Made by a program: the position numbers and the translations under genes. Shown here piece after piece: positions 2,940 to 39,146 of a stretch of DNA of 42,427 nt (the first letter of the stretch is position 1; the number at the start of each line of letters is the position of its first letter). Source of the DNA: a virus; IMG/VR virus record IMGVR_UViG_3300028831_000408, positions 1-42,427 of that record. The stretch is one strand, 5' to 3'. The notes under the pieces are model-generated. The model was not told the origin of the DNA. It did not search any database and saw only the letters and a list, made by a program, of their open reading frames with translations.

Positions 2940-3919
2940 AGACGTTTGTGTTGTACCACGGAGGTTGTCCAGATGGGTTTGGAGCGTGTTTCGCCGCGTG
3001 GCTGCGCTACGGCGATAATGCCACGTACATTCCGGTGAACTACGGCAAGCCGATGCCGGAGATGGAGGACGGCTCCGAAGTTTTCATCATCGATTTTTCC
3101 TATCCGCGCGAGCCATTGAAGCAACTGGCCCGGAGGATGCGATCGGTAGTTGTGCTCGATCACCATGCGACGGCTCAAGCGGATCTCGACGGTTTGCAGG
3201 TGGAAATTGCCGGAGAATTTTTCAAGACTGAGGCTGGCAAGAATCTGCCAGCATCACCTCACCTCATCCGCTTCGACATGAACAAGAGCGGGGCGGTGCT
3301 CGCCTGCGAATACTTTCACGGCGACGCCATCAAGTGTGAAGTGGGACAGCTCGGGGAATTCTTCGCCTACTTGCAAGACCGCGATCTCTGGAAGTTCGAA
3401 CTGCCGATGAGTCGCGAGGTGTCGATGGCGCTGCGTTCCTACCCAATGGATTTCAAAACCTGGTCGGACCTGAGCGGGATCAGTGTCTCGGGGCAGATTT
3501 ACGAAGCGCCCGGGATCTGCATGGACCGGCTGAAGAAAGAAGGCGTCGCCTGCCGCCGGCTCACCGAGCAGCAAGTGGACATCATGGCGAAGAACCATCG
3601 GTGGGGCTACTTCGATACGAAGTCAGGCAAGGTGGAGATCAAGAACGAATTCGATCCTGGCGGCAACGGCGAACCCACGGTGCCGTCTCACGTCGTCATC
3701 ATGCCGGTGGCAAACGCCACGGTGTTCTTCTCCGAAGTTGGAGAGAAACTTTTGCAGAATCATCCGGGATTCGATTGTGCTGCGTACTATCTCGATCGCG
3801 CGGATGGCCGGCGCCAGTGGGGACTTCGCAGCCGGGAGAACTTTGACTCATCCGCCGTCGCTAAAGCCTTCGGGGGTGGGGGGCATCCCGGCGCTTCTGG
3901 GTTCGTTCAACAACTATGA
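2930..3919 (+). CDS. DHH/DHHA1-family phosphoesterase
   Basis: A 329-residue phosphoesterase of the DHH superfamily (RecJ/NrnA/GdpP-type fold). These metal-dependent enzymes hydrolyse short RNAs (nanoRNA), pAp or cyclic-dinucleotide products. Seen in the sequence: motif I YHGGCPDGFG (H10, D15), motif II IIDFS (D55), motif III LDHHAT (D77, H78, H79), and a C-terminal DHHA1 glycine motif GGGGHPGASGF (315-325). All expected metal ligands are present and the length suits a compact, cytoplasmic NrnA-like enzyme. Start GTG 2930 is chosen from the Shine-Dalgarno 5 nt upstream; it overlaps the HNH gene by 10 bases. The stop overlaps the next gene (ATGA at 3916). Its place between portal and scaffold genes is odd for a metabolic enzyme. 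Substrate is unknown; RNA turnover or removal of host signalling nucleotides are both possible. Confidence 0.88.
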   Translation: MGVKTFVLYHGGCPDGFGACFAAWLRYGDNATYIPVNYGKPMPEMEDGSEVFIIDFSYPREPLKQLARRMRSVVVLDHHATAQADLDGLQVEIAGEFFKTEAGKNLPASPHLIRFDMNKSGAVLACEYFHGDAIKCEVGQLGEFFAYLQDRDLWKFELPMSREVSMALRSYPMDFKTWSDLSGISVSGQIYEAPGICMDRLKKEGVACRRLTEQQVDIMAKNHRWGYFDTKSGKVEIKNEFDPGGNGEPTVPSHVVIMPVANATVFFSEVGEKLLQNHPGFDCAAYYLDRADGRRQWGLRSRENFDSSAVAKAFGGGGHPGASGFVQQL

Positions 3920-9071: not shown

Positions 9072-9718
9072 ACGACGATTACGCGGACGTCCACGCCAAG
9101 CGCTACCAGAAAAGCCTGGAATGGATCTCGCCGCTCGCCGACAAGGCGGAGAAGATTTTGGATGTCGGCGGTGAATCTCCATTCACCAAAATCCTTCGGG
9201 AACGCTGGCCGGGAAAGATCGAGCCTTATCTCACGGGCGATCTGCGAAAGCTATTCATCATCGCCAACTGCGATCTGATCCTGGCGATGGAGACGATCGA
9301 GCACATCCCGGACTGCGAGGATCCGGAAACGATTCATCACAGATGGATTGGAACCGGCGCCGAAGGGCTGCTCGCAAGTTGCTGGATGAGCCTCAAGCCG
9401 GGCGGTCATCTGTTTCTGACTACGCCGAATTGTTGCAGCATCACCGCCATCCATCACGCGCTGAATCATCAGCCGCCGATGCTCTACCGTCCGCATGTCA
9501 GGGAGTACTCCGTCTATGAACTGGACGAGATGATCCGCCCGATCGGGTTCGAGATCGTCCGCAGGGAAACCCTGGACGTGTGGCGGAACGCGATCTCCAT
9601 GAGGGAACACGCGCAGATCAAAAGGTTCATTGAGGAGGAGAATTATCCGCAGGAGCTGCGCGGGGAGGATATTTTCCTCTTGGCTCGCAGACCGTTGGAG
9701 ACTACAAAGCCATCGTGA
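9068..9718 (+). CDS. Class I SAM-dependent methyltransferase
   Basis: A 216-residue methyltransferase with a Rossmann-type fold. Motif I is ILDVGGESPFT (30-40), which binds SAM. The acidic strand is CDLILAMETIEHI (68-80), and the post-motif strand is SLKPGGHLFLTTPN (108-121). The E-x-IEHI and LKPGG...TTPN words are typical of the Methyltransf_11/23 group that includes small-molecule, lipid and glycan methylases. It lacks the NPPY/DPPY motif of adenine methylases and the PC motif of cytosine-C5 methylases, so DNA methylation is less likely. The start at ATG 9068 overlaps the preceding stop (ATGA) and leaves motif I 30 residues in, as usual. With the GH130-like gene upstream it forms a small possible glycan-modifying pair. 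Confidence 0.8.
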   Translation: MNDDYADVHAKRYQKSLEWISPLADKAEKILDVGGESPFTKILRERWPGKIEPYLTGDLRKLFIIANCDLILAMETIEHIPDCEDPETIHHRWIGTGAEGLLASCWMSLKPGGHLFLTTPNCCSITAIHHALNHQPPMLYRPHVREYSVYELDEMIRPIGFEIVRRETLDVWRNAISMREHAQIKRFIEEENYPQELRGEDIFLLARRPLETTKPS

Positions 9719-10248
9719 TCTTTTATCACTGCGCCAATGCGAGCCGGTCGGTGAAAGTCTCATCCGGCAAGCGGGTGACGTTCGACGTTTACAAGTACTT
9801 CGCTGGATCCTGGCTCGGGATCGCGGCGGTTGAAGATCCCGAGACGATCGAATTGCTGGACGAACTGGTACGGAAACCAAAATCCGGCATCACTCGCATC
9901 ACGGAGGAGGAGTACAGAGCGAATCTCAAAAAAAAACTTTCTCCTCCGAGCTTCAGACCCTCAACCGTATCGCTGTCTCCGCCTCAAGCAGCAGTCCAAC
10001 CTCTCCCTGCCGGACGCCGTGCGGTCGTGGCTGAAGGCGCAGGCAACCAACCTGCCCCGGTTGTTCCCAAGGTTTACGATTCAGTCGATGACTTCCTGAA
10101 GATCGGCGCGGTGAAAACGCTGGATCCCGGCCCCGAACCGGTCAAGCGGGACATGGGCGAACGATCCGACCGGGCGACGGGCAGACCGTCCAGGCGGCCG
10201 AAGTATCGCAGCGAGGATGATGTTCCAACCGAGGAGGACGCGGCATGA
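9715..10248 (+). CDS. Unknown protein, proline-rich C-terminal half
   Basis: A 177-residue protein of unknown function, starting at GTG in a 4-base overlap (GTGA) with the methyltransferase. The N-terminal about 75 residues look folded (MIFYHCANASRSVKVSSGKR, then FDVYKYFAGSWLGIAAVED). This resembles small phage connector-region proteins in composition only. The C-terminal half is Pro/Ala/Val-rich and ends basic and acidic (RRPKYRSEDDVPTEEDAA), likely disordered. A run of nine A bases (9928-9936) encodes KKK. The gene ends in an ATGA overlap with the next tiny gene, with AGGAGG just before it. Confidence 0.55.
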   Translation: MIFYHCANASRSVKVSSGKRVTFDVYKYFAGSWLGIAAVEDPETIELLDELVRKPKSGITRITEEEYRANLKKKLSPPSFRPSTVSLSPPQAAVQPLPAGRRAVVAEGAGNQPAPVVPKVYDSVDDFLKIGAVKTLDPGPEPVKRDMGERSDRATGRPSRRPKYRSEDDVPTEEDAA

Positions 10249-17890: not shown

Positions 17891-18205
17891 ATGGCACTCC
17901 GACGATACACACCCAAGACGTTCACCAAACTCGTTGCTTCTTCAGCCACTCCGGAATTTATTCACGATAACGACATCCGGATGTACGGCCTCATCTTTAT
18001 TGCCGAGAAGGCTGTTGGGACCGAAAACTCCGGCGATGTGTTCATCCAGATCGGAGGGGTTGACGCGATCAAATTGGAACCTGGCCGGCAGTTGACCTGG
18101 CCGCAGCCGCCTTTTGAAGCGGGCTACCTAATGCCCCAAGATTTCAAACTCCGCGTCAGCACGAACAATGACGGAGTCCGCGTCATCTACAACGAACTGA
18201 CATGA
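17891..18205 (+). CDS. Small beta-rich structural protein, unknown
   Basis: A 104-residue protein with beta pattern (RMYGLIFIAEKAVGTENSGD, then VFIQIGGVDAIKLEPGRQLT) and a Pro-rich loop. The composition is like that of small phage proteins that decorate virions or cap tails. It starts 12 nt after the previous stop and ends in an ATGA overlap with the membrane-anchored fibre-like gene. Not recognised further. Confidence 0.6.
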   Translation: MALRRYTPKTFTKLVASSATPEFIHDNDIRMYGLIFIAEKAVGTENSGDVFIQIGGVDAIKLEPGRQLTWPQPPFEAGYLMPQDFKLRVSTNNDGVRVIYNELT

Positions 18206-19476
18206 AATCTTTTCTCGATCGCATGGTCGTTCCAGCCGCGTTCATTGTTGTCGTCGCCTTCATCTTTCTCCTTCTCTACGCCGCCTTCCAACCGATCGAG
18301 GCGCAGCCGGCCTCGCAGATCCGGTTGCGCGATCTTAACGACGTTCGGATCGCAACGACGCCGGCCAACGGGGCGGCTCTGGTTTGGAACAGCGCGGCGA
18401 ATCGTTGGACGAATGGAATCGCGGGAAGCACTGGGAGTTTCACCAATGCGCTCGCCAATCCATTCACGACGAACGTGACGACCGTGACCCCGAACACATT
18501 GGTAAGCGTCGATAACGCCGGCGTCCCCCACGGAAACGGAGTCACCGCGCAGGTCGTTTGGAATTCCCTGTTCAACTCTCTCGATAAGACCGGCCTTTCA
18601 GGCAGTGCACTTGTGTTTGCGAACAGCCCTGTACTGAGCAGCGTCACGAACGCGAGTTTAACGCCAAGCACTCTCGTTTACGCAGACGCCACTAAAAAAG
18701 AATCGAGCGCTATAATCGGCTACGGTCTTGATTTCACGGCGGGAACTTTGAGCGCGCCACTGCTTCTGTCTCAAAACGGAACCAACGGGGCTCCGACGAT
18801 CAACTTCACGAACAGCGCGACTGTGACGTGGACGAAAGCGGGAACGAACTGGCAGGCGAACGTCGCCGTTGTGGGGCCTGCGGGTGAGACGAATTATTAT
18901 GACTTCACTTTCATCACGAACAACATTTTTCTAAGCGGCAAGGGCAACACGCTGATCGTTACACAGGCGCTCACGATTCAAGCCATCAAGACCAATTTGC
19001 TTGCGACCACATCGACCGGCCTTGTTACAAACGCTAATTACGGGACTGGCGTTTCCTGGGACCCGAGCACGCTAACACTCTCAGCGAGTGGCGGTGGCGG
19101 CAGCGCAGGCTCAACCAACTACCGAAGCCTAGTCGTCACACTCACGATGACCGGGACGAACGTTGACGCCGGCCAGATCGACTGGGCGCGGACAAACCAG
19201 TGTTATCGGTTGACGCTCACGAATAGCGCCTTTTTCGGTGATACAGTTTGCACCAATGTCCCCGACACAAACTCCTTCCAATGGTTGCAACTGGACCTAG
19301 TGCAGGATGCGACAGGCGGAAGGAAGGTGACATTCACTAACTCGATCTTCGCGGGCGTCAACGGGACATTCGCCATTACGACCAACGCTAGCGCCTGGGA
19401 CTCTTGCACACTCATCAACTCGCGGCAGACCAACGGCAACGTCGCTGTTTTGCCTTCCAACAACCTGCACCGATGA
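18202..19476 (+). CDS. Fibre-like protein with N-terminal membrane segment
   Basis: A 424-residue protein with two unlike parts. Residues about 9-29 (VVPAAFIVVVAFIFLLLYAA) form a clear hydrophobic segment after a Lys/Arg start, either a signal anchor or a signal peptide cleaved near IEA-QPAS. After it comes fibre-type sequence: LRDLNDVRIATTPANGAALV and VWNSAANRWTNG, then Asn/Thr/Ser/Gly-rich beta repeats, and a C-terminal beta domain (about 310-424) with WDSCTLINSRQTNGNVAVL. The fibre-like body is known from tail proteins, but these normally carry no export signal, so the protein may be displayed in the cell envelope. ATGA overlap at the start and at the end couple it to neighbours. Confidence 0.7.
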   Translation: MKSFLDRMVVPAAFIVVVAFIFLLLYAAFQPIEAQPASQIRLRDLNDVRIATTPANGAALVWNSAANRWTNGIAGSTGSFTNALANPFTTNVTTVTPNTLVSVDNAGVPHGNGVTAQVVWNSLFNSLDKTGLSGSALVFANSPVLSSVTNASLTPSTLVYADATKKESSAIIGYGLDFTAGTLSAPLLLSQNGTNGAPTINFTNSATVTWTKAGTNWQANVAVVGPAGETNYYDFTFITNNIFLSGKGNTLIVTQALTIQAIKTNLLATTSTGLVTNANYGTGVSWDPSTLTLSASGGGGSAGSTNYRSLVVTLTMTGTNVDAGQIDWARTNQCYRLTLTNSAFFGDTVCTNVPDTNSFQWLQLDLVQDATGGRKVTFTNSIFAGVNGTFAITTNASAWDSCTLINSRQTNGNVAVLPSNNLHR

Positions 19477-20402
19477 TGCGTTTTCTCTTTTCGCTATTCT
19501 TATTCGCCTGGTCCCTCCACGCTGCTGGCCCGGTGCGCTGCGCTTTCGACGCGAAGGTTGTGAACTGGAATTATCGCAGCTTCAAAATCAACGCACTCGT
19601 AAACCCGACAATATCCTTGCTCGCTTCTTCGGTTTGGATGGGTGGGATTCGCACCATCGGCTACTACCCTGGCAACGTCGTGAGAGCGAATCTGTTTTGT
19701 GGCACAAGCTACGGAGGCACCAACGGCTGCGGGGATTCAACAGCTGGTGGATACTATGAAATTGGCGCGCCGCAGGTGCCGCTTATCAACGATGTCGGCA
19801 GTGAGCGCGATGAGAGCCTTTCCGTCCCGGCTTATTGGAATTACCGGGAAACCGGGTCAAGCGGCGGTCTTGGTGCTGTATCTTCTGCGCACGCTGTCAC
19901 CTTGGACACCGGCATCACTCCCAGCACTGACCTGTCGTTGAATGATGTTCATGTGGCTGTTTACATGATGGGGAGCGGGGCTGAATCGGGAAATGTTACT
20001 CCGATTGGCGCTGTGTCGGGCGGCGCCAACTTCTGTTGTCTGATGGTGAGTGCCTACGCGGGCGCCAACGTGACGCAGATAGGCACCTACGTTGGTCAAC
20101 CCGCTGCAACAGACACCAACGGAGCGGGCTTTTATATTGGAACCCGAGTCTCGAACAGCGCTGATGGAGTGCGACAATACCACAATGACACTGCCACTGG
20201 AGTTTCAACATCTGTTGGAGCAGCATTGCCAAGCATCCACCTTTTAATTTTTGGTCAAAACAACGGAGGGGCAATCGACAGCTCGACCTTTCATTTGAGC
20301 GGCGGCTACGCCATCGGAAAAACCGTCACCGCGGCGGTGGCCACAAACGGATACTATCAAACATGGCAGCAGTTCGAAACGTTACTTGGGAGGCAGAAAT
20401 GA
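19473..20402 (+). CDS. Secreted lectin-like/fibre-like protein
   Basis: A 309-residue protein, start ATG 19473 in a 4-base overlap (a second ATG follows at 19476). The first 19 residues (MMRFLFSLFLFAWSLHAAG) are a typical Sec signal peptide with likely cleavage after HAA. The mature part is beta-rich and Gly/Ser/Thr/Asn-rich, with four Cys. It ends in a pattern seen in concanavalin-like fibre domains (FHLSGGYAIG, then YYQTWQQFETLLGRQK). The family is not certain. A signal peptide on a fibre-like protein is unusual for a virion component and again suggests export to the envelope. The ATGA overlap at the stop couples it to a tiny membrane protein. Confidence 0.65.
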   Translation: MMRFLFSLFLFAWSLHAAGPVRCAFDAKVVNWNYRSFKINALVNPTISLLASSVWMGGIRTIGYYPGNVVRANLFCGTSYGGTNGCGDSTAGGYYEIGAPQVPLINDVGSERDESLSVPAYWNYRETGSSGGLGAVSSAHAVTLDTGITPSTDLSLNDVHVAVYMMGSGAESGNVTPIGAVSGGANFCCLMVSAYAGANVTQIGTYVGQPAATDTNGAGFYIGTRVSNSADGVRQYHNDTATGVSTSVGAALPSIHLLIFGQNNGGAIDSSTFHLSGGYAIGKTVTAAVATNGYYQTWQQFETLLGRQK

Positions 20403-26974: not shown

Positions 26975-29900
26975 GTGGCCAACTCCATTGTCAGCGCATT
27001 CCGCAGAAGGTATCCGCAGGACCAGCGCAGCGACGATGAACTGACGCTGGCGATTGGTTCAGCTTACCCGGAGTACGCAGACGCCGCTAAGTTTCCTGAC
27101 TTCCATTCGGATCTTCAGCGGTTGACCAAGGCGACGCAGCCTCAGCCAAACGCGGTCCCGCCGGAGATCACCCCGTTCCCGCCAACGCTCGGAGAATACG
27201 GGAAGCAGATGCTCGGCAGCGCGGTTCGAAGTTTTACGGGGACGCTGGGATCCATCCCCGAGGCGGTTGGCTCCGCCGCGCGCATCGCCGGAACCTACTC
27301 GGTGCCCGGTGCGGAATACGTGCCGATGTATTTGGAGACCGAGCCGGGAGTGATCGAGACTTCTTTGACTCGCCTCGGCCAGGCGGTTTCTCCCGAGCCG
27401 GTCCCAGGTCTTGAGAAATCCTTCGTCGCAACCGAACTGCCGGCGGCGGTGGCTTCCGGAGCTGCGTTCATTGCGGGCGGCGCCGGAGCTGGAGCGGCGG
27501 AGATGGGCATTGTGCGCTCGATCGGCGCACGCGCGATTGCCCGGGCGGTTGAGGCCGGCATCGAGAAACAAGCGGCGGTGAAAATCGGGCAGGAGGCGGC
27601 AACGATCGCAGCGCAGCGCCTTTCTTACGGCAACATCGCAAGTCTTGGCGCGCTCAGCCAGGCGCAATCCGGTTACGAAGAAGCGCGCCGGGCCGGCGCC
27701 GATGAACACACGCGCTGGCTTGCTTTCTCCCTGAATATTCCGGTCGGCATGACTGAGGCCGTGCCGTTGGCGAACATCCTGAACCGGATGGACAAACTCA
27801 GCGGCGGAACTTTGAAGCAATCACTCATCCACGCCACGGTGGATTCGTTCGAGGAAGCGATTCAGAATTCGTTTCAGGGCGTTGCGGGCGACTACATCGC
27901 TTCAAGGCTCGCGAAGTATGAACCTGACCGGAAGCTCTTTTCCTCGATCGCGGAGGATGCGGCCTCGGGCGGGATCTCCGCGGCTATCCTGAGCCTTGCC
28001 GGTTCGGCAATAGGCGGGAAGCTAAGGCGCGGGCCTGTTGAATCTGGCGGGCAGCAGCAGCAAACTCCGCCCCCGCCTCCGCCAGGAACCGCTCCAGCCG
28101 GTGTAGTTCCGCCCGCTGCGCCTCCACCAGCGGCACCCGATGTTGCAGCGCAGTACGCGAGTCCGGAGCAGCAGGCTGCCGCTCACGCGCAACGGATGCT
28201 GGAGGTTGCGCGGCGATCCGTGTTCGGCGGGTTCGGGAGCGACGACATTGCTTTCGTTTCACAGTTACCACCGGAACAGCAAGTGACGTATCAGGCTTTG
28301 GTGAACGAAGCCAGAAAGGAACAGGATGCCCTTAATGCACGGACAGAGCAACAGCGTGTTGAGGAAGAACGTCGCAGAAATGATGAACAGCTACGCGCGC
28401 AAGAAGAAGATCGGCAACGTCAAGCCGCGCAGCAAAGCGCACGCGCGGCGAGTGGCGCTGGCGGCGGCGTTCCGGCAGCAACGGGAGTCGGATTAGCGGC
28501 GTCCACCTCCGATGCCGCGCCTGGTAGCCAAGGACAAACGGTCACCGCGCCTGAGAAAGGCATCGTTCCCACGCCGCCGGCATTGGTCTCCATTCCGGCC
28601 TCCGATCTGCCTCCGGTTCTGGAAGCGCTCGCGCTGAAGGTGGCGGATCCGAAGGCCGGCAGATTGACGGATGACGAGATGGCGACCATCCCGAAGACGA
28701 CGGATCCATGGTACGGCCGCTACCAGAAACGAGTGGCCGAGTTGTCCGCCATCTTCAAGGCGAGACCAGGAGCGGTGCCGGTGGCGCCTGTGGTGGCAGC
28801 AGCTCCGGTCCCGGTTCAGCCGGTTGCCCCCGCACCGGTTCCTCCGCGTCCACCTTTGCCTTCGCCGGTGCGCCCGGTGACGGCCCCGTCGCTCAGCAAC
28901 GTTTACGTTCCTGGCCCCGGCCAACCTGCGCCGGTTGGTTTGATCGCCCAAGCCAGGGCCAAAGCCGTGGCGTTGGCAACAACGATCCGGAGGAAGATCG
29001 CCGCGGTGATCCACACCTCGCCGATCTACGATACGATCGCCTTTGATGGGGATTCGCCGCTGACCTTCGAACTGTCTGGGAGAGGCGTAGGTGAGCGGAC
29101 GAGGATGACGCCGATGGACCCGAAGCTGGTTGTCGTGGGTTCCGGCAAACACGAGGGACACAAAGGCACGGTCATTGAAGGTCTGGATGAGGAAGGAATC
29201 CCAAAACCGGGACCGGTGAAGGTCCGTCTGGATAACGGCGACGTGATCAACGTCGATGAAGGCGACTGGAAAACGCTGGCGTCGATCAGGAAGGAAATGC
29301 AAGAAGGTGCCGGCGAACAGACTACACTTGCGCCCGCTTATTTTGAATTTCGCCAACCCCCGGAAGCTAACGATAAAGCCCTGCAAAATTCCGGTATAGT
29401 TAGCCAGGCGTCGGTGACCAAAAAGAAGGTGGATGGCGGCAGCAAGAACTCTTGGACGCACCGCTGGACGGTGTTCCGCCAGGGCAACAAGGTTTACATC
29501 CTGCCGACCTACAAGTCCGAGGGCAGCATCAAGGCGGCTGAAGCCGGCCAGAAGAAGGGAACGCGGGTGGTTGAGCTGATGAAACGGGGGTTTATACCCA
29601 TAGCCTCGTTTCGCGCCACAAATGCCGTACACGCGATTAGGGCCGCAAAGCCTGTCATGGGCGCGGACGAGTACGAACGGACGCTTGCCAGCCAGGCCAG
29701 GGAACGGATGGCAGCCAGCGCACGAACGGCTGCGGCTTTCGAGGCCAGCCAACAGCCGGGCCAGAGCATCAGCACGGAGACCGTGGCTGGGACATCGGCG
29801 CGGACGGTGGAGGAAGTTCCCGGGGCGGAAGAGGCGGTGACCGGGACCGGGCCGGCGGTTCCCGCCGCCATGCCGGTGGAGATTATATTCTCCGCTGAAC

Positions 29901-32900
29901 TTGCCCACGATCTTTTCCCGAAGCTGACGCAGGCGTTGGCACTGACGACGGGGAAGCTTTCGATCAGCAACGAAGCAACATTGAAGGCGATCATCAAGTA
30001 CACGCAGAAAGGCAAATATGGCGAAGAGATCAGGACCGAAGCCGTTGCCCTCGCCCGCGAGATCGGCGAGGCCAATGCCAGCCGTGCAATCCTTAAACGA
30101 ATTGTCCTGGCCTATAACAACAGCCGAACAAGCGGAGAATTTGCTGAAGCGATTTCCAAACTTGGAGGGGCCGGAGCTGTGGCCGCAACAGGCGAGCGAG
30201 GATCACCTGGCGCTGCAGTTGGTCGTCCAGCAGGGCGGCGTAGCCAACCCGCAACGACCGTTGCGGCTGCAACCCCAAACGCTGGAGTGGTTGGACAGGC
30301 TGGCCCAACTCCAACCGTCACCCAATCCTGGCAGCGCAGCCAGCCAAAGTTCCGCGTAGGTGAGGACATCACGCAGGAGCAGGATTATGTGCCTGAGGAT
30401 GTGATCTTGAATGGGGTGTCGCAATCTTTGCAATTGGATGAGGAGTATCGCAGCAAAATAGCGTATCACGCGCAGCAGGGTTTTCTGATGGAAGAGATCA
30501 TGGATCTCATCCAAGCGCAACCGAACGGCGCTCAGTCAGTCGATCCGTCGAACAAACGACCATTCGCTCCGGCAGCCCTTGAAGACGCAGCTCAAACCCT
30601 GCAGATGCACTTGGGGAGCATCGTCAAGGGCGACACAAGGGTTGAAACGTACCCGGAATTTGAGCACAACATTTTACGTGAAGCTCTCTCAAATCCAGAC
30701 ATTGTTCGCATTGCCAAGATGGTGGAAACACCAGGATCGCAGGGAGATATTGAAGGTCGTCAGATTGAATATGCTTTAGGCAAGTTGATGGAGGCCGGTC
30801 TGGATGGTCGTCAGGCTGAAGCCGCGTTGGCCGATTGGTATGAATGGAGGAGTGACATCTACAACAGAGATCCAGGCACGGCCTATTGGATCGAACTGCA
30901 TGTCCTCAACTACAATGGCCCAGAGAAACCGGGAGAAATGGAGCACCGGCACGGCGGGCCGGAACCAAAACTCACCGTGCGCCAAGGCGGGTACGCCAGC
31001 TCTGAGGATGTCCACGCCAAACTTCAGGCCGTGCTGGAACGGCTCGCGGCAGCCGGCGTCGATGTCTCCGTGTTCCAACGCAGGCTGGATGATCTCACCG
31101 GCAAGGATGCTTTCGGAAGATTCACCCGCAGACCCGGCGGAATGCAGGACAGAAACGCCGTGGCTCTGGTGTTCAACGACGTCACCAAGCCGAGCATGGA
31201 CGATCTCATCACGGCCATCCATGAGGCCGTCCACGTCCTTGCCTCGCGCGAATCGCCGGAGATGCAGCGCCGGATGCACCGAGCGATCGAGCGGCTGTCC
31301 GATGTCGCGCTCGGCCTGACCGCGCCGGGCGTGGATCCGCGCGCCACGACGGAGAACATCGGGCGGCTGGATCCGGAGGCGCTGGCGGGTGAACGGCTGG
31401 CTGAATCCCTGGCGCAGGAAGGGTTCGACCCGATCGCCGCGCGCAGCCTGAGTCAACGCGTGATGAGGTTCCTGAAGGATCTTTGGAACCGGGCCTGTAT
31501 GGCCATACAGCAGTCCTTGTTCGGCGAGGATGCGGTGAATCCGGAACGTGTCGTTGAGTACTACCGGAACCGGCTGCAATCCTTCCTTGCCGGCGACCCG
31601 ACGCCGATGTCGTTCGTTGATTTTCTCGGAGGCCAGAAGCTGTCACTGGAACGCGCGGCCAGGTTTTATGTGCCCATCGCGGACTCTGAAACCTTTGCGC
31701 CTGTGGTGGTGGACTGGCAGAACGGCAAGGTAAAGTATGCCCAGGACGTTTCGGCAACGGCGGCAGCGGCGATAGCCGACATCCGTAACGCCATCCGTTC
31801 CGCGGAGACAAAGTTCCGCGACCCAAGCTTCGTTGCCGAAGGGGAACCGATCGGCGGTGAGAATCCCACGATCCGCGGGAGCATCAAATTCGCGGCCGCC
31901 AACAAGATTCAGGATATTTTGGCCAGGGCTTACGACGCGTTCAACGCGACGGGGGCCAACCCGGTGGACGCCGCCGGCGCGCGGCCGATCACGTTCGACA
32001 TATTCATCAGCCAGTTTCAGAGGGAACTTGATCATCCGCAGGCGATCAAGGACGGGATCCAGGGCGAGCTGACGGCGATCTCCGCGCCGCCTGTGAACGC
32101 GGACCTGAACGTGGACGGGCCGGTGACGATGGATAGCGACGCGCTGCGGAAACAATCAAAGGCGATTGCGCTCAATCACCTGAACCAATGGCTCGGCAAC
32201 CTGAACGATGTCTTCAACACGGAGATCCGCAGGCGTGAGATCATTGGCAGGGCGCTTTCCAGAACGATTTCAAAGTCCGAGAAGCTGGCCGGCCAATGGC
32301 AGAACCTGATGTTCTATTTCGAGAACTTCAAAGAGGCGATCGGCGATCTCATTGCCCAGACCAAAGACGACATACGGGAGGGCATCGGCCTGGCCAAACA
32401 CGTCGGCATGTTGACGCAGTCGCTCCGCGAATTGAATTCGCAGATGAGCGATTCAACTCCGACCGCGTACCGAAACCTCATCGACCGGATGGCGAAGAGG
32501 ATCTTCGGCGACGCCGAACATTTCACCGAATTTCTGGAGGACGTTGCGGCGATGGACGTGGACTGGCACGGCCAGACCTTGCCCCAGATCAAGGCGGAGC
32601 TGCGGGTGTTGCTCGATACCAACGCGCTTTTTCACGGCATGAGCCCGGACGAAAAGAACGTGGCATTGGCGTTGGTGGCGTCCTTTGCCCGGACCAACGA
32701 TCATCAGATGGCGTGGCTGGCGGTGAAGGCGAGCAACAACTATGAGGCGCGGGACGCAATCGCCGAGATGTTGAACGAGGCGAAGAAGGATACCACGGCG
32801 AACCTGAACAATGCGCGCGCGCTTGTGAATAAGGTTCCGGCCGCCGCGCGTCAGGCGCAACGGATTCTGGACCAGTACCTCAAGGCCAGGAAGGAAGCGC

Positions 32901-35900
32901 GAACGTGGCTGGACGACCAGGTGCGTAACACCCGGATCATTCAGGCGCAGGCCGCGGCGGCTCCAGTGCTCGGGCAGGAGATACGGAATTTGGAGAGAGA
33001 CCTTGGCGGATCCAGGCCGGTGGCATTGGAGGACGGAGCGCAGCTACCCCTTGTCGTTTCCGCCACGGACACGCCGGAACAGATCTCCGCGCGGGCGCCC
33101 TTCGAATATCACGCGAGCGGCACCAACGCCGCGACACCGGCGCAGGTGGGAACGCTGACGCGCAACTACCGGGCGTGGGTTGAAGCCAACCGCGCGACAG
33201 GCGGGGCGATGGTGAACACGCTCAGCGATCTCGCCGACCGGCTGGATCTCATCGACGCGCGCAAGCAGGCGGTGGGGATGCGGCAGGGGATTCTCGCCAG
33301 AGCGCTGGGTTCGTTGGCCGACGCGTGCTTCCAGAGCGGCTCCGTGAACGCGCAACGCATCGGGAAAGCGCTGACCAGGTTCTCTTCGTTGGAAGGATCC
33401 TACGTGCGCGAGCTGACGAACCTTGGACTGAAAGCCGCAGCCGATCGAACGCGGGCGATGAATGCGCTCGGGATCAAGGAAGTCGCCACGTTCATGGACA
33501 CCTTCCACGACGGCGCCTTCGGTTACTTCGAGAAGCGCAAAGATTTGTTGGAGCGGCCTGATGCCCGTGAAGCGGCGATCAGCGCGTGGCATTCAGCGTT
33601 GCTGGCGAATCCGGCAACGAGATCATTGGTCACGCCGGCTGCATGGCAGAAGCTGCGCAACTATTACGAGCGCTGCGTGGAGTACAACAAGGCCCAGGCG
33701 CGCATCGCGGGTGAGATGGGAATAAAGATCAACGACAACAACCTGGGGATGTTCAGGGATCCGATCGGCGATCCCATGTTCACCACGCCCAGAGGTCTGA
33801 ACACCAGGATCGAGACGTTGTTCCATGAGATGCGGGATCAATGGAACGGGGTGAAGTCGGCCAGGATGAAAGCGGACGAGATCGCACAGAGATTCGCAGA
33901 AGATCCAGCCGCGCTTCAGGCAGCGTTGCGCAGCCGGTTCACGCCGGAGGTATGGCGCCTGTTCGTTGGCGAGATGGCAAAGAGGGACGGGCGCTCGCTG
34001 TTCTCCGGACGTCAGTGGACGTCCGGGAAGTGGACAATCGCCGAGGTGGTGAATGTCCGGCGGGCCTACGCCGAGGCGGGCGGGGATCCGTTGGTGTTTG
34101 CCGCAAAGCTCCATGAGCTGGAGGGCGGCAACGCGGACACACTGCCGGCGTTTGTTGGCGAAACTCTTGAAACATTCCAGAATTATTTCGATGCGATCGA
34201 ACGGATCATGTCGGAGAGTGAGGATGCCGAGAAACGGTTCGGATTGCAGAAGGGCGTGCCGCGTTTCCTGATGGACGCGCGTGTCTCCGAGGATTTCCCG
34301 ACTGGCTGGCTGCGCTACGTCCACATCGACGAGCATCACGCGCGGCAGGCCATCCACCGATTTGCCTTCCACGCCTCGTTTGGACGCAACGGATCCACGG
34401 TGACGGCCGACTTCGACGCCGCCATCAAGGAACTCAGGACCGCGGCGAACGAGTGGACGGAGTACCTCCGGCGGGCGCGGGAATCGAACCTGACAAAGTC
34501 CGGCGGCGACATCATCAAGGCAGCTCGCGAACTGGCGAAGGCCGATGGCAAGAACGTGTCCCTGCTCGAACATGCGGCGCAGAACACCTCGGTCATGGGC
34601 AAGACGCAGCGGCAGATGGAAGCGTGGTTCAGGAGCCAGAGCAATGACTCGGTCGAACCCCGCGTCTTTCTTGAGATGCTGTCCTTTATGACATCGCTCA
34701 TGGTGCAAGGCCCCAAGACCGCGATGATCAATACGATGGATCTCTTTGGCGGGCCGGTCATCCAGTACAAGTTGTCGGCGGATTCGCTCCGGCATATCAG
34801 GGATAACTGGTCGAACTTCGCGCAGTCCGCGTTTGGTTCCCTGTTCCAGACGTTCGGGATCCAACTCAACACGAACATCGAGGACCGGCTGTTGATGCAG
34901 AAGCTTGGCCACACCGATCCGGACAACCAAATCCGGCTGGTGGATCGCCTTGTCTCGGCCGTGAATTCGGAGACGTTCGGCAGCGGTAGGATTGCTGGCG
35001 CCATTATCCGCGGAGGGCGCGTTGCGCGGGCGATCACGCAGTCCGGTTTACCGGCGAGAACCGCAGGCGAGGGATTGTATCCGACGATGAAGGCGGCGCC
35101 GTTCTCCATGATCTCGCGCTGGATGAACGAGGCATTCATCCTGGCCAACTGGGGAAGGTTCAGGGGTTTTGCCGCTCGGGCTGTTGACTATCTTCGCGCG
35201 CATCCGGAGGCCGTTGCCGATGACAACTTCCGGTTCACGCCGGAGATGATGGGTTATCAGAAGGGCATCTTCCTGAACGAGGCCGAGTCGTTCAACGCTC
35301 TCAAGGAAGCGATGAACCGGTGGGGCATGAGCCTTGAGAACGTGGCGAAGAACGCCCTGCATCCTGGATCCCCGCTGTTCACCGATGATCAACACCGGGC
35401 GCTGGCCGAGATGGCGTTGGAGGAACTTTCGCTGGAAAGCTCGCCCAATACGGCGCCGCGCTGGGCCGCGAACCCGGTGGGCCGCGTCACCATGCCGCTG
35501 CTCCGATGGTCGTTCGCCAGAACCAACCAGTTACGCAAGGCGTTTCAGGAGCCTTCCGGCGAAAAGAACCTGCACTCGATGTTGTCCGGCCTGAAGATGC
35601 TGGCCCTGGCGACCGGCGTGGGCATCGGTTACGCCCTGCTCATGGGCAAGTACGACGAGGAACTGACCGGCAAAAAGTCCAACATTCGCGGGTTTGGGCA
35701 GGACAATAATCTCCTGGCAATGGTGGAGATGACCGCGCGCATGGGGTCACTCGGTCTCTGGGGCGACGTGGCTAACACCTTGGGCAACTACGCCGGCACC
35801 GGGGACCTGCGCGGGATGAGCCTGGACAACCGCGTGGTGTTCGTTAACTCGCTCCTCAACACGATGGCGGCGGTGGCCACGTTCGCCAAGCAAGGCGAGG

Positions 35901-36529
35901 CGACCTACGCGACGGTGTACCGCCAGCTCCTGCAGGCGCTCGGCGGGTCCGGCTATTTGCAGATCGCGCAGATCCTCAACAACGAGCTGTCCCTGGACAA
36001 CGCCGAGGCCCGCGTCACCAGCCGGATCAACGTGAACAACTGGCTGCGCGCGGTCGGCAGGGAGATGAATCTGGACGTTCGCATCGGACGCGGCGCCGGC
36101 GCCTACGCCGAGACGAACACCATCAAGCCGTGGGTTGGCGAGATGTTGCTCGCCGCGCTCGCCGACGATCAGGCCGACTTCATCCTGTCGTACTCCAAGG
36201 CGGTCAACGCTGCTCGAGCGGAGGGCAAACCGGATCCAGTGAAGCACGTTCAGCAAAGCTATGCGGCTTACAATCCGCTGCGCACTGTGTTCGTGACTCC
36301 GCCCACTGAAGCCGAGTACGCGCAACTCCTGATGCGCCTGCCTCCGAGCGGGCGGGCCGACGTGCAAACCGCAATGCTTTTGTTCAATAAGTTTGGCGGC
36401 GAGATCGGCGTAAAAGATTACGAAGGCAGGGTCGAGAACGCGAAGCCGCCGCCTCTGACCACGCCGACGAGGTCCGCCGGGCAGGTTCGCGGCAGCGTGG
36501 CATCGAATCTATTTCCGGTGTACCGTTAA
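26975..36529 (+). CDS. Giant internal virion/polyvalent-type protein with HEAVH motif
   Basis: A 3,184-residue protein, start GTG 26975 (an ATG two bases before is in another frame and stops soon). It is probably ejected with the genome. Seen in order: Ala/Gly-rich hydrophobic helices (about 140-200, 320-350), Pro-rich linkers and a Gln/Glu/Arg coiled coil (about 365-495), Pro/Val linkers (about 610-650), a KOW/SH3-like stretch (about 715-770), and a zinc-peptidase motif ITAIHEAVHVLASRE (H1416, E1417, H1420; a later ERLAESLA could supply the third ligand). Long helical stretches follow to about 2600. Near 2870 lies one transmembrane-like segment MLALATGVGIGYALLM, and then a conserved-looking C-terminal part. 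This resembles phage polyvalent proteins, whose separate domains protect incoming DNA. Peptidase activity could digest host envelope or defence proteins. Domain boundaries are my estimates. Confidence 0.7.
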   Translation: MANSIVSAFRRRYPQDQRSDDELTLAIGSAYPEYADAAKFPDFHSDLQRLTKATQPQPNAVPPEITPFPPTLGEYGKQMLGSAVRSFTGTLGSIPEAVGSAARIAGTYSVPGAEYVPMYLETEPGVIETSLTRLGQAVSPEPVPGLEKSFVATELPAAVASGAAFIAGGAGAGAAEMGIVRSIGARAIARAVEAGIEKQAAVKIGQEAATIAAQRLSYGNIASLGALSQAQSGYEEARRAGADEHTRWLAFSLNIPVGMTEAVPLANILNRMDKLSGGTLKQSLIHATVDSFEEAIQNSFQGVAGDYIASRLAKYEPDRKLFSSIAEDAASGGISAAILSLAGSAIGGKLRRGPVESGGQQQQTPPPPPPGTAPAGVVPPAAPPPAAPDVAAQYASPEQQAAAHAQRMLEVARRSVFGGFGSDDIAFVSQLPPEQQVTYQALVNEARKEQDALNARTEQQRVEEERRRNDEQLRAQEEDRQRQAAQQSARAASGAGGGVPAATGVGLAASTSDAAPGSQGQTVTAPEKGIVPTPPALVSIPASDLPPVLEALALKVADPKAGRLTDDEMATIPKTTDPWYGRYQKRVAELSAIFKARPGAVPVAPVVAAAPVPVQPVAPAPVPPRPPLPSPVRPVTAPSLSNVYVPGPGQPAPVGLIAQARAKAVALATTIRRKIAAVIHTSPIYDTIAFDGDSPLTFELSGRGVGERTRMTPMDPKLVVVGSGKHEGHKGTVIEGLDEEGIPKPGPVKVRLDNGDVINVDEGDWKTLASIRKEMQEGAGEQTTLAPAYFEFRQPPEANDKALQNSGIVSQASVTKKKVDGGSKNSWTHRWTVFRQGNKVYILPTYKSEGSIKAAEAGQKKGTRVVELMKRGFIPIASFRATNAVHAIRAAKPVMGADEYERTLASQARERMAASARTAAAFEASQQPGQSISTETVAGTSARTVEEVPGAEEAVTGTGPAVPAAMPVEIIFSAELAHDLFPKLTQALALTTGKLSISNEATLKAIIKYTQKGKYGEEIRTEAVALAREIGEANASRAILKRIVLAYNNSRTSGEFAEAISKLGGAGAVAATGERGSPGAAVGRPAGRRSQPATTVAAATPNAGVVGQAGPTPTVTQSWQRSQPKFRVGEDITQEQDYVPEDVILNGVSQSLQLDEEYRSKIAYHAQQGFLMEEIMDLIQAQPNGAQSVDPSNKRPFAPAALEDAAQTLQMHLGSIVKGDTRVETYPEFEHNILREALSNPDIVRIAKMVETPGSQGDIEGRQIEYALGKLMEAGLDGRQAEAALADWYEWRSDIYNRDPGTAYWIELHVLNYNGPEKPGEMEHRHGGPEPKLTVRQGGYASSEDVHAKLQAVLERLAAAGVDVSVFQRRLDDLTGKDAFGRFTRRPGGMQDRNAVALVFNDVTKPSMDDLITAIHEAVHVLASRESPEMQRRMHRAIERLSDVALGLTAPGVDPRATTENIGRLDPEALAGERLAESLAQEGFDPIAARSLSQRVMRFLKDLWNRACMAIQQSLFGEDAVNPERVVEYYRNRLQSFLAGDPTPMSFVDFLGGQKLSLERAARFYVPIADSETFAPVVVDWQNGKVKYAQDVSATAAAAIADIRNAIRSAETKFRDPSFVAEGEPIGGENPTIRGSIKFAAANKIQDILARAYDAFNATGANPVDAAGARPITFDIFISQFQRELDHPQAIKDGIQGELTAISAPPVNADLNVDGPVTMDSDALRKQSKAIALNHLNQWLGNLNDVFNTEIRRREIIGRALSRTISKSEKLAGQWQNLMFYFENFKEAIGDLIAQTKDDIREGIGLAKHVGMLTQSLRELNSQMSDSTPTAYRNLIDRMAKRIFGDAEHFTEFLEDVAAMDVDWHGQTLPQIKAELRVLLDTNALFHGMSPDEKNVALALVASFARTNDHQMAWLAVKASNNYEARDAIAEMLNEAKKDTTANLNNARALVNKVPAAARQAQRILDQYLKARKEARTWLDDQVRNTRIIQAQAAAAPVLGQEIRNLERDLGGSRPVALEDGAQLPLVVSATDTPEQISARAPFEYHASGTNAATPAQVGTLTRNYRAWVEANRATGGAMVNTLSDLADRLDLIDARKQAVGMRQGILARALGSLADACFQSGSVNAQRIGKALTRFSSLEGSYVRELTNLGLKAAADRTRAMNALGIKEVATFMDTFHDGAFGYFEKRKDLLERPDAREAAISAWHSALLANPATRSLVTPAAWQKLRNYYERCVEYNKAQARIAGEMGIKINDNNLGMFRDPIGDPMFTTPRGLNTRIETLFHEMRDQWNGVKSARMKADEIAQRFAEDPAALQAALRSRFTPEVWRLFVGEMAKRDGRSLFSGRQWTSGKWTIAEVVNVRRAYAEAGGDPLVFAAKLHELEGGNADTLPAFVGETLETFQNYFDAIERIMSESEDAEKRFGLQKGVPRFLMDARVSEDFPTGWLRYVHIDEHHARQAIHRFAFHASFGRNGSTVTADFDAAIKELRTAANEWTEYLRRARESNLTKSGGDIIKAARELAKADGKNVSLLEHAAQNTSVMGKTQRQMEAWFRSQSNDSVEPRVFLEMLSFMTSLMVQGPKTAMINTMDLFGGPVIQYKLSADSLRHIRDNWSNFAQSAFGSLFQTFGIQLNTNIEDRLLMQKLGHTDPDNQIRLVDRLVSAVNSETFGSGRIAGAIIRGGRVARAITQSGLPARTAGEGLYPTMKAAPFSMISRWMNEAFILANWGRFRGFAARAVDYLRAHPEAVADDNFRFTPEMMGYQKGIFLNEAESFNALKEAMNRWGMSLENVAKNALHPGSPLFTDDQHRALAEMALEELSLESSPNTAPRWAANPVGRVTMPLLRWSFARTNQLRKAFQEPSGEKNLHSMLSGLKMLALATGVGIGYALLMGKYDEELTGKKSNIRGFGQDNNLLAMVEMTARMGSLGLWGDVANTLGNYAGTGDLRGMSLDNRVVFVNSLLNTMAAVATFAKQGEATYATVYRQLLQALGGSGYLQIAQILNNELSLDNAEARVTSRINVNNWLRAVGREMNLDVRIGRGAGAYAETNTIKPWVGEMLLAALADDQADFILSYSKAVNAARAEGKPDPVKHVQQSYAAYNPLRTVFVTPPTEAEYAQLLMRLPPSGRADVQTAMLLFNKFGGEIGVKDYEGRVENAKPPPLTTPTRSAGQVRGSVASNLFPVYR

Positions 36530-36571: not shown

Positions 36572-36952
36572 ATGGTCTTGATCCTGCTCTCCGCGGCCGC
36601 GGGTTTGGTGATTGGCTGGCTGGTCCGGCATTACTTCAAGACGCCCGGGTTCAAGAGCGACACGACGCGGTTCTTCAAGCAGGGCGGTTCAAATGTTAAA
36701 TTCTACACTCCGTCCACGCTTCGCCTGGTGCTCTACGCCAGTTTGGCCTCAATCAATTTCAGCGATGAAAAGGTCGGAGAATGGGACGTGCTTGAAGCGC
36801 AGGGCAAAGTTGTCAGTCAACGACAATACGAACGGTTCAGGCTCGGCAACGCAAGACAGGTGCTGATTGTCTGCATCGCATTCGTGGATCAATCGCTATC
36901 CAAAGCCAATCGCAAGAAGGAAGAGGACAGCACGCGCCCTCCGCTGGGATGA
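36572..36952 (+). CDS. Small single-pass membrane protein
   Basis: A 126-residue protein with one N-terminal transmembrane helix (MVLILLSAAAGLVIGWLVRH, about 2-19), then a basic and mixed cytoplasmic or periplasmic part with a second mildly hydrophobic helix (RLVLYASLASINF; RQVLIVCIAFVDQSL) and a charged tail (KANRKKEEDSTRPPLG). AAAGAG lies 2 nt before the ATG. Only 3 nt separate its stop from the histidine kinase gene. The kinase has no membrane segment of its own, so this could be its membrane partner. A holin or spanin-type role is also possible given the lipoprotein downstream. Family not recognised. Confidence 0.6.
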   Translation: MVLILLSAAAGLVIGWLVRHYFKTPGFKSDTTRFFKQGGSNVKFYTPSTLRLVLYASLASINFSDEKVGEWDVLEAQGKVVSQRQYERFRLGNARQVLIVCIAFVDQSLSKANRKKEEDSTRPPLG

Positions 36953-36955
36953 TTT

Positions 36956-38482
36956 ATGGGAAAACTCAAATGCCTATTGCTGGATGACGATGAGAACTTC
37001 TCGCTCCTAGTGGCTCGCGAGCTGCGCGACGTGGCCACGATTGATGCCGCCCACAATGGACGGGAGTTCAAAACTAAAATCGAGGCAGAATGGGATTGCG
37101 TGCTGGTGGATCTTGCGTTGCCTGACATGGACGGCGAGGAAGCGATCAGACTGGTGCGAATGCTGCATCCCCCGGAAACTCCCGTCATCATCCTGACCGG
37201 CTCAGTCGGAGCGCGGCAAGCCGACCTCGCCTGCGAAGCCGGCGCCTCCCGGTTCTTCATCAAGGACGAACTGGCCGGACTGTCGCGGGCCGTGCAGCAG
37301 GCGCATGAGCACGCCGTCACGGTGCGCAAGGCGGCTAGGGCGGCGAAGGAGGCGGCTGATTTGCGGGCACAGTCAATCAGAGACCAGCGCGTCGAAGTCA
37401 TCGGCTCTCTCAGCGCCGGGATCATCCACGATTTCAACGGCATCCTGGCGATCCTGATGATGGGCACGGAGCACCTGCGCAAAGCCCCGAACGATGAGCG
37501 GGTGAAGGACCACATGATGAGCGCGTGCAAACGCGGCGCCGAGATGACGGCGCAACTGCTCGCCTTCGCGCGCGGAGCCAACGGCGCGGCGTTCAAAAAT
37601 CTGAGTCCCGAGTACCTGTTGGGCGAGGTGGAAACCCTGATCCGACCTACGTTCCCGCAGAACATTCATATCGAATTCAAGGTGGCGCTCGGCACGTCTC
37701 ACGTCCGCGGTGACGCCACGCAGTTGATCCAGGTGCTCACGAACCTCGCCACGAACGCGCGCGACGCCATGCCTGACGGCGGCTCGCTCAGCATCTACGC
37801 GCAGGACGTGTCAAATCTGCCTGGAATGTCCGGGAATTGCGTTGTGTTCTCGGTGAGTGACACCGCCAAAGGCGGAATCGCGGCGGACATCCTCCCCTAT
37901 ATTTTCGAGCCGTTCTTCTCAACCAAACCGCCCGGGAAAGGAACAGGTCTTGGGCTTCCAACCGTGCGCAGGATCGTTGAGGCTCATCACGGCCTGGTGA
38001 CCGTGAGCACGACGAAGGAAGGATCCAAGTTCGAGGTGTTCATACCGGCTGCGCCGTCTGCCGGCGACACCGAGGAAGCTCAAAGGCTGGCCTTTAACGG
38101 AGGCGGGCTTACGGTTCTTCTGGTGGACGACCAGGCGAGCTTCAGGGATCTGGCGCAGATGCAGCTTGAGAGACTCGGCTTCAAGGTAATCACGGCGGCG
38201 AATGGCCCGGAGGCTTTGAACTTCTTCAGGACCGGCCACAAGATCGACGCGCTGCTCACGGATCTGGCCATGCCGATTATGACCGGAACGGAGCTGGCCA
38301 GGAACCTGCGATCGAACGGCCACACCGTGCCGATCATTTACTTGAGCGGGCACGACGCCTCGCCGCCGCACGATCCCGAACCGCAAGCCGTGGTTCAGAA
38401 ACCCTTCACCAGCGAACAACTCATGGCCAAGCTGAAGCAGGTGTTGACTTCGCCCGTGGCACCGAATAAACCAAGCCCATGA
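36956..38482 (+). CDS. Hybrid histidine kinase, REC-HisKA-HATPase-REC
   Basis: A 508-residue soluble two-component protein. Receiver 1 (3-118): acidic pocket D10-D12, phosphoacceptor D52 (CVLVDLALPDMDG), T81, K103. HisKA (about 140-210): SLSAGIIHDFNGILAIL with H158 in an HDFN box. HATPase (about 220-365): N box NLATNARDAM (N267), G1 SVSDTAKGGIAADIL (D302), F box YIFEPFFSTK, G2 GKGTGLGLPTVRR. Receiver 2 (385-500): D391/D392, D436, S464, K482. All phosphotransfer residues are present. The G1 box differs from DxGxGI (A for G and one extra residue), which may lower ATP binding. There is no sensor or membrane domain; input may come through receiver 1 or the small membrane protein just upstream. 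It is coupled to a lipoprotein gene by ATGA. Such a protein is highly unusual in a virion-gene operon; it may be an acquired host gene. Confidence 0.92.
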   Translation: MGKLKCLLLDDDENFSLLVARELRDVATIDAAHNGREFKTKIEAEWDCVLVDLALPDMDGEEAIRLVRMLHPPETPVIILTGSVGARQADLACEAGASRFFIKDELAGLSRAVQQAHEHAVTVRKAARAAKEAADLRAQSIRDQRVEVIGSLSAGIIHDFNGILAILMMGTEHLRKAPNDERVKDHMMSACKRGAEMTAQLLAFARGANGAAFKNLSPEYLLGEVETLIRPTFPQNIHIEFKVALGTSHVRGDATQLIQVLTNLATNARDAMPDGGSLSIYAQDVSNLPGMSGNCVVFSVSDTAKGGIAADILPYIFEPFFSTKPPGKGTGLGLPTVRRIVEAHHGLVTVSTTKEGSKFEVFIPAAPSAGDTEEAQRLAFNGGGLTVLLVDDQASFRDLAQMQLERLGFKVITAANGPEALNFFRTGHKIDALLTDLAMPIMTGTELARNLRSNGHTVPIIYLSGHDASPPHDPEPQAVVQKPFTSEQLMAKLKQVLTSPVAPNKPSP

Positions 38483-38928
38483 GAAAACTCCTCAACTCGA
38501 TCGTCTTGGCGGCAGCCGTGTGTCTTGCTGGATGCAACAGCGGATGCGGTGTGCTCGACAAGGGGACGAAGGAAAAGCCCAGTCCCTATGGCGGGACAAA
38601 CTCACTGGGGGAATTAAAGACTCCCGATCGGATTCTTTACGATGCGGACTTCTCCATCGCTACGGCTTACGAGGTTGTTCACAGCTTCGTGAAGTACGAG
38701 TTCGACAACAGGGCCGCTCTGGCTGCGACGCCCAAGATCAAGGAGACAGCCGACCGGATCCGGGCCGGCGCCCCGGGCTGGTTCAAATCCGCAGTGAAGG
38801 TACGCGATGCTTACGCGAAGGATCCTTCCGCCGATAACAGGAAGGCGCTCGACAAGGCGCTGGATGTTTTGCAGCAGGCTGTCGTCGAAGCCAACCGTCA
38901 CCTGTCCGAGCAACCCCTGACCCCTTGA
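38479..38928 (+). CDS. Lipoprotein, unknown
   Basis: A 149-residue predicted lipoprotein: MRKLLNSIVLAAAVCLAGCN with lipobox LAGC (C19), so it would be lipidated at Cys19. The mature part has a short Gly/Pro/Lys linker and then helices (TAYEVVHSFVKYEFDNRAAL; RIRAGAPGWFKSAVKVRDAY; ALDKALDVLQQAVVEANRHL), soluble and likely in the periplasm. It starts in an ATGA overlap with the kinase. A spanin-like lysis role or a receptor-masking role is possible; Rz1-type outer spanins are usually much shorter. I recall similar helical lipoproteins in other phages but cannot name a family. Confidence 0.75.
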   Translation: MRKLLNSIVLAAAVCLAGCNSGCGVLDKGTKEKPSPYGGTNSLGELKTPDRILYDADFSIATAYEVVHSFVKYEFDNRAALAATPKIKETADRIRAGAPGWFKSAVKVRDAYAKDPSADNRKALDKALDVLQQAVVEANRHLSEQPLTP

Positions 38929-38933
38929 TTCCT

Positions 38934-39146
38934 ATGGACGCACTGACAATCGCAAGCGGCGCTATCCTCATACTGAAGGCCGCGATGCAAGAAATCGAGC
39001 AGCAGGTTAAGGATGGCAAGATCTCCGTCGAATCACAGGAAGCGCAGCTCCGGAAGATCGATGCCATCCGTGATGGGAATTTCAGCGGACCTGAGTGGGA
39101 GATAACACCCACGCCTCCGCCACCAACCGTTCCGCCCTCATCTTGA
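38934..39146 (+). CDS. Small unknown protein, proline tail
   Basis: A 70-residue protein from ATG 38934; TTG 38925 is a possible alternative, overlapping the previous stop. The N-terminal segment (ALTIASGAILILKAAMQEIE) is mildly hydrophobic and may lie in a membrane or in a coiled coil. Then follow charged helices (QQVKDGKISVESQEAQLRKI) and a Pro-rich end (TPTPPPPTVPPSS). No function recognised. It is the last gene of the plus-strand operon; holin or lysis-accessory roles are conceivable. Confidence 0.5.
   Translation: MDALTIASGAILILKAAMQEIEQQVKDGKISVESQEAQLRKIDAIRDGNFSGPEWEITPTPPPPTVPPSS

Follow-up and report, generated by a model that had tools for sequence, protein, structure and literature searches.

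A phage-borne hybrid histidine kinase with two receivers and a predicted receiver-controlled phosphorelay

Does a hybrid histidine kinase gene found on a viral contig belong to the phage that carries it, and what might a kinase with two receivers and no evident sensor do there? The locus that raises this question lies at positions 36956-38482 (+) of the window, that is, the whole IMG/VR record of 42,427 bases analysed here. The open reading frame starts with ATG, contains no internal stops and encodes 508 residues in the order REC-DHp-CA-REC, all features of the window described below lying on the plus strand. The first receiver, REC1 (residues 1-118; 36956..37309), carries the phosphoacceptor D52 (37109-37111) and retains the acidic residue D11 together with T81 and K103. 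A signalling helix (37280..37426) leads from REC1 into DHp helix 1, where the phospho-acceptor H158 (37427..37429) is followed by a retained D159 and, at the position designated H+4, by G162 (37439-37441). The CA domain (HATPase_c; residues 214-366, 37595..38053) has a canonical N267 (37754-37756), FEPFF motif and G2 box GKGTGLGL (37934-37957), along with an altered G1 box, DTAKGGI (residues 302-308; 37859..37879). Finally, the second receiver, REC2 (residues 386-498; 38111..38449), matches Pfam Response_reg and holds the receiver residues D391, D392, D436, S464 and K482, with D436 (38261-38263) as phosphoacceptor. The complete relay described in the original prediction, comprising D52, H158, N267 and D436, is present in full, and these four residues are invariant across the ten phage homologues introduced below.

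Profile searches and structural modeling agree on this arrangement. Pfam recovers the two receiver stretches (E 4.9e-33) and HATPase_c (E 5.7e-20) in the window kinase; HisKA stays below the Pfam reporting threshold there, reaches 1.5e-8 in the homologue L142, above the cut-off, and 2.9e-4 in the homologue G004, below it. An AlphaFold2 model built on a 31-sequence alignment (mean pLDDT 88) contains REC1 at residues 1-108, an unbroken helix, residues 109-176, that runs from REC1 into the DHp domain and bears H158, a second DHp helix at residues 181-207, and thereafter the CA (214-365) and REC2 (386-498) domains. Neither the Pfam search nor the model contains a sensor or transmembrane domain, in agreement with what had been proposed from the sequence. 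The match to PHROG 5982 (E 3.5e-72) aligns only the DHp-CA-REC part of a longer profile that carries no functional assignment.

The kinase had been supposed to be an isolated case. When the window protein served as sole query, IMG/VR yielded no relative. Alignment-based scans of the same collection, on the other hand, recovered a recurrent family in uncultured phages of several kinds and a gene arrangement common to other phages. The search for orthologues yielded ten distinct full-length members on viral contigs, namely those of the window, G004, L012, L013, L014, L017, L138, L139, L142 and L143; the L014 protein recurs identically in L016, and the L139 kinase is also found on L140 and L141. 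The kinase contigs that were checked bear terminases, a portal, major head proteins, tape measures or tail fibres, the kinase homologues sit among tail, head or lysis-type genes, and tape-measure proteins are present in the phages of L014, L017 and L142. These phages are far apart: the capsid-module protein of the window is only 30% identical to that of L012's phage and about 30% identical to that of G010. In INPHARED, no record covers 80% of the kinase query, and the partial matches, all below 40% identity, lie in many cases in unannotated or host-like records.

In the phylogenetic tree, the window kinase and six others form a clade without bacterial members (support 100/99), and L017, L142 and L143 form a second clade (100/100). 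A single clade of all ten phage kinases has an AU p of 0.46, and we claim monophyly for the groups of seven and three only. L018, considered as a further member of the phage group, falls among bacterial kinases, and the corresponding 11-member clade is rejected (AU p 9e-5). Across all ten members, D11, D52, K103, H158 and D159 of REC1 and DHp are invariant, as are N267, D302, G329/331/333, D391, D392, D436 and K482 of CA and REC2; H158 and D159 are also invariant in the 31-sequence alignment. Every relay residue has thus survived across widely divergent phages. Codon comparison of L013 with L014, the one pair close enough to measure, indicates purifying selection between these two (dN/dS about 0.09, with dS near saturation); the dN/dS of the window kinase was saturated and was left out.

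Whether the window gene is the phage's own can be judged from G004, a related phage contig of 77,687 bases found by queries with the capsid-module and giant-protein genes. Its capsid-module protein is 87% and its giant-protein C-terminus 75% identical to those of the window, and the genes flanking the window kinase on both sides have homologues in it, which places the kinase gene inside a phage genome. G004 encodes its own full-length kinase, about 40% identical to that of the window, at a different genome place between fibronectin-like and fibre-like genes; at the equivalent place the window has a gap of about 440 bases and no kinase-length open reading frame. The kinase is thus common to both phages, but has been either relocated or separately acquired. 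A signalling helix longer by 14 residues in both copies favours common descent of the two, though they are unpaired in the tree.

The opposite view, that a kinase from a host chromosome was passively captured in recent times or that bacterial sequence was misplaced in the contig, starts from the bacterial origin of the family. Hybrid kinases, many of them from Verrucomicrobiota, are the bacterial proteins that come nearest, with 34-40% identity over DHp-CA-REC2. They resemble the window kinase over this portion and are longer between REC and DHp, usually measuring about 760-800 residues, roughly 240 of which form an extra region at that point that is absent from the phage members; its length is typical of a PAS-type sensor, which length alone suggests as a candidate. 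Compact bacterial REC-HK-REC proteins do exist (L060 and further loci), Verrucomicrobiota chromosomes among their sources, and their profile scores are about 360-466 bits, as compared with 640 bits or more for three phage members scored alongside them. Near-identity to a host gene that lacks phage relatives, named beforehand as the mark of passive capture, was searched for, and the outcome was the reverse, with the closest relatives on phage contigs and bacterial identity of at most about 40%. The third-codon-position G+C of the kinase is like that of neighbouring genes, and both flanks match G004, which has its own copy elsewhere. On identity, flanks and tree we reject passive capture, which we consider highly improbable. 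As to the host, the kinase relatives hint at Verrucomicrobiota; searches run without a positive control, and hence of no evidential weight, gave no match for the capsid-module protein and the lipoprotein in 388 Verrucomicrobiota genomes and no tRNA gene in the window as a host clue.

Closer comparison with kinases of solved structure points to the manner in which REC1 may act. The best fold match by Foldseek is LvrB with a phosphorylated REC (PDB 8vc9; E 8e-26, 24% identity); the two superpose badly over their whole length (TM 0.3-0.4, rmsd about 21), which a flexible monomer model would lead one to expect. In LvrB of Leptospira, phosphorylation of the REC domain activates the kinase, and full-length structures reveal that the signalling helices then coil and the CA domain is freed (PMC13269768). 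LvrB, the prototype REC-controlled kinase and the closest solved relative in architecture, shares with the window kinase a long helix connecting an N-terminal REC with DHp-CA, a knee Glu and a pivot Gly; unlike the window kinase it is bacterial, lacks a C-terminal REC and is about 24% identical. The continuous helix between N-terminal REC and DHp that characterizes LvrB-type kinases is found in the AlphaFold2 model, and the knee Glu (E147, at H-11) and pivot Gly (G150, at H-8) stand at the same offsets as in LvrB. Based upon this fold match and these offsets, we take REC1 as the input, and by analogy the predicted mechanism and fold are those of an LvrB-type kinase plus a C-terminal receiver.

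The spacing of the signalling helix is in keeping with such control. From K103 to H158 there are 42 residues in eight members and 56, or eight heptads, in the window and G004, a whole number of heptads in both cases, and the 14-residue insertion keeps the heptad phase, which fits the requirement of a coiled-coil signalling helix. Among 21 compact proteins, a set that takes in bacterial ones, 15 have a span from the REC lysine to the His that is divisible by seven, these counts not being independent owing to shared descent. ShkA is a soluble hybrid kinase whose two receivers both lie C-terminal to the kinase, one of them being a pseudo-receiver; in the window kinase, by contrast, one receiver is N-terminal and both retain the Asp. 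ShkA of Caulobacter (PDB 6qrj) and CckA (PDB 5idj, 5idm) were also recovered as structural matches, with a related DHp-CA core.

The reading that we favour, to which we assign an even chance, is that of a phage-maintained, soluble, receiver-controlled hybrid kinase that reads and drives a host phosphorelay. We infer the following sequence of events, which covers the turnover of ATP, the route of the phosphate, the partners in the host and the purpose served. Late in infection or in a lysogen, a host kinase or phosphotransfer protein would phosphorylate D52 of REC1. Phospho-REC1 would dimerise and zip up the heptad-phased signalling helix, which would free the CA domain for autophosphorylation of H158. 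The phosphate would then move from H158 to D436 of REC2, and REC2 would hand it on to a response regulator or phosphotransfer protein of the host; in relatives the recipient may be a stand-alone receiver that the phage itself encodes. In this manner the phage could read the state of a host phosphorelay and drive the relay in its own interest. The proposal that a phage-borne, sensorless hybrid kinase takes its input through REC1 accordingly survives in a qualified form: the enzyme is apparently active and REC1 is its likely input, LvrB working in the same way.

Two departures are peculiar to the window copy. First, its G1 box reads D302-T-A-K-G-G-I as compared with DTGxGI in the family, a Gly-to-Ala change plus one inserted residue, and the insertion occurs in none of 30 aligned relatives. 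The altered G1 box already remarked upon is therefore real, but unique to this copy, and it retains the key Asp, D302, which makes the adenine contact in enzymes of this class. Second, and overlooked in the original prediction, H+4 is Gly in the window alone, as opposed to Asn in 154 of the 161 homologues where the motif was found; the other nine phage members have Asn, and G162 lies outside the Asn/Thr pattern of bifunctional kinase/phosphatases. Taken together, G162 and the G1 change imply that the window copy may be partly impaired, and an alternative reading is that it is a modified or decaying kinase whose chief role is not kinase activity but that of a phosphate sink, or of a platform to which the host relay binds. 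Both its Gly at H+4, the single case among the homologues scored, and its G1 insertion speak for this. Against it stand the preservation of H158, D159, N267, D302 and the G2 box, an uninterrupted frame of 508 codons, and a CA domain modeled at a pLDDT of about 85-97, with the G1 region at about 95. In HisKA kinases, moreover, the H+4 position serves phosphatase, rather than kinase, activity. We therefore regard a sink as unlikely; the sequence suggests a kinase whose ATP lid is modified and whose phosphatase activity is slight.

The neighbouring genes offer candidate partners for the receiver-controlled kinase. A gene for a membrane protein of 126 residues (36572..36952, +) ends 3 bp before the kinase ATG; that of a 149-residue lipoprotein (38479..38928, +) overlaps the kinase stop by 4 bp (ATGA); and that of a small protein of up to 73 residues (38925..39146, +) comes closely after the lipoprotein gene. 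These four genes probably constitute one transcription unit. A kinase beside membrane-protein, lipoprotein and small-protein genes recurs, in varying order, in the window, L012, L013, L014 and L138, and the L139 kinase has lipoprotein and small-protein genes alongside. A homologue of the membrane protein lies directly upstream of the L138 kinase (E 7e-18), with a weaker one in L012, and a small-protein homologue comes after the lipoprotein gene in L014. The membrane proteins of L013 and L014 show no detectable homology to that of the window, and the lipoproteins of L138 and L139 match each other and not that of the window; the recurrence is therefore in part one of gene type and position.

A separate scan for the lipoprotein family yielded nine contigs. 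Among those outside the query set, L218 encodes a 367-residue REC-DHp-CA kinase (9119-10222, +) without REC2, beside genes for the same lipoprotein and small protein. In that phage, if not elsewhere, the second relay step can be dispensed with; from sequence, the core may be a kinase activity under REC1 control, to which REC2 was added. In L222, also outside the set, a stand-alone receiver overlaps the lipoprotein start, and in L221 and L223 no signalling genes were found near the lipoprotein. In L215-L217, which represent L143's phage and close kin and supplied one query sequence, a stand-alone receiver adjoins the lipoprotein. G011, G012 and G013 all possess a stand-alone receiver as well as the kinase, and in G013 this receiver adjoins a homologue of the window's 149-residue lipoprotein. 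The stand-alone CheY-like receivers of the three second-clade phages lie at L206:10899-11426 (+), L209:3811-4620 (-) and L211:5570-6427 (-). Some 15 kb separate the kinase and lipoprotein genes of G004, which makes the cassette non-obligatory, and the gene positions support a link between receivers and the lipoprotein family that is not universal. No stand-alone partner receiver was found in G004. The window is probably an incomplete genome, G004 being 77.7 kb, and a partner receiver may lie elsewhere.

Because the kinase gene is coupled to a membrane-protein/lipoprotein cassette, envelope stress or lysis timing would be a plausible theme for the relay. A second alternative carries this further and places the input within the phage itself: damage to the envelope, or superinfection, would be sensed by the membrane protein and lipoprotein, these two would act on the signalling helix or on REC1, and the kinase would time lysis or superinfection exclusion. 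The close linkage of the window's four genes and recurrence of the cassette in unlike phages are consistent with such an input, as is a Phage_holin_10 gene (Pam3 gp28 family; L221:2117-2287, +; E 7.8e-19) directly before the L221 lipoprotein gene, the only direct hint that the lipoprotein belongs to a lysis cassette and the basis on which a lysis role is suggested. Set against these observations, the genes stand apart in G004, the complete REC1 has been retained, suggesting phosphate input, and the lysis role of the cassette proteins is putative, the window membrane protein and the L215 lipoprotein having no reliable Pfam or PHROGs match. Envelope input is therefore possible, though we think it doubtful. 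Equally tentative is a broader version, in which several phage lineages would keep a cassette devoted to signalling. Its components would be a small protein, a lipoprotein, an inner-membrane protein and either a stand-alone receiver or a REC-controlled hybrid kinase; with it the infecting phage or prophage would sense the condition of the envelope or of a host relay and, by phosphotransfer, time lysis or lysogeny.

Gene position also bears on when the kinase would act. Its assignment to a late virion operon is fair, resting in part on gene order, with few virion genes named by PHROGs; the portal and capsid names used for the window derive from gene order and size, as neither PHROGs nor Pfam recognises these proteins. 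The kinase gene comes just after a giant virion-module gene, and the G004 kinase lies between tail-fibre-like genes, an arrangement that would suit a kinase packaged with the virion, injected, and acting at the start of infection. Late expression is the simpler account of the gene place, and virion association is putative; we consider packaging very unlikely.

Phage histidine kinases as such are already known. The AgrC homologue of phiCDHM1 is a phage histidine kinase without its own response regulator, of the Gram-positive quorum-sensing type, whose proposed origin is the phage's own host species (PMC3901668). Unlike the window kinase it has no receivers and belongs to an unrelated system, and it looks like a transferred host gene, whereas the window kinase belongs to a phage-exclusive clade. 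A search of the open-access literature for 'phage-encoded histidine kinase', a scope outside which most subscription papers fall, returned no match. The apparent novelty lies in a clade of REC-controlled hybrid kinases that is exclusive to phages and accompanied by a recurring cassette. Phages seem to keep up a signalling protein that might connect with the phosphorelays of the host, and concrete candidate partners are suggested by the membrane/lipoprotein cassette that recurs. Whether phages run a phosphorelay hub of their own, by which host signalling is read and steered, becomes a testable question.

Several other genes of the window merit description. The giant virion-module gene (26975-36529, +) encodes a single protein of 3184 residues, the first 1008 of which have no PHROGs match; its G004 counterpart measures 3286 residues. 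Two fibre-like genes of 424 and 332 residues (18202-20402, +) have counterparts near the kinase in the otherwise different phages L017, L138, L139 and L142, suggesting from sequence a shared, exchangeable module. HNH-like and DHH/DHHA1-like genes (2367-3919, +) lie between two virion-module genes that stand closer together in G004.
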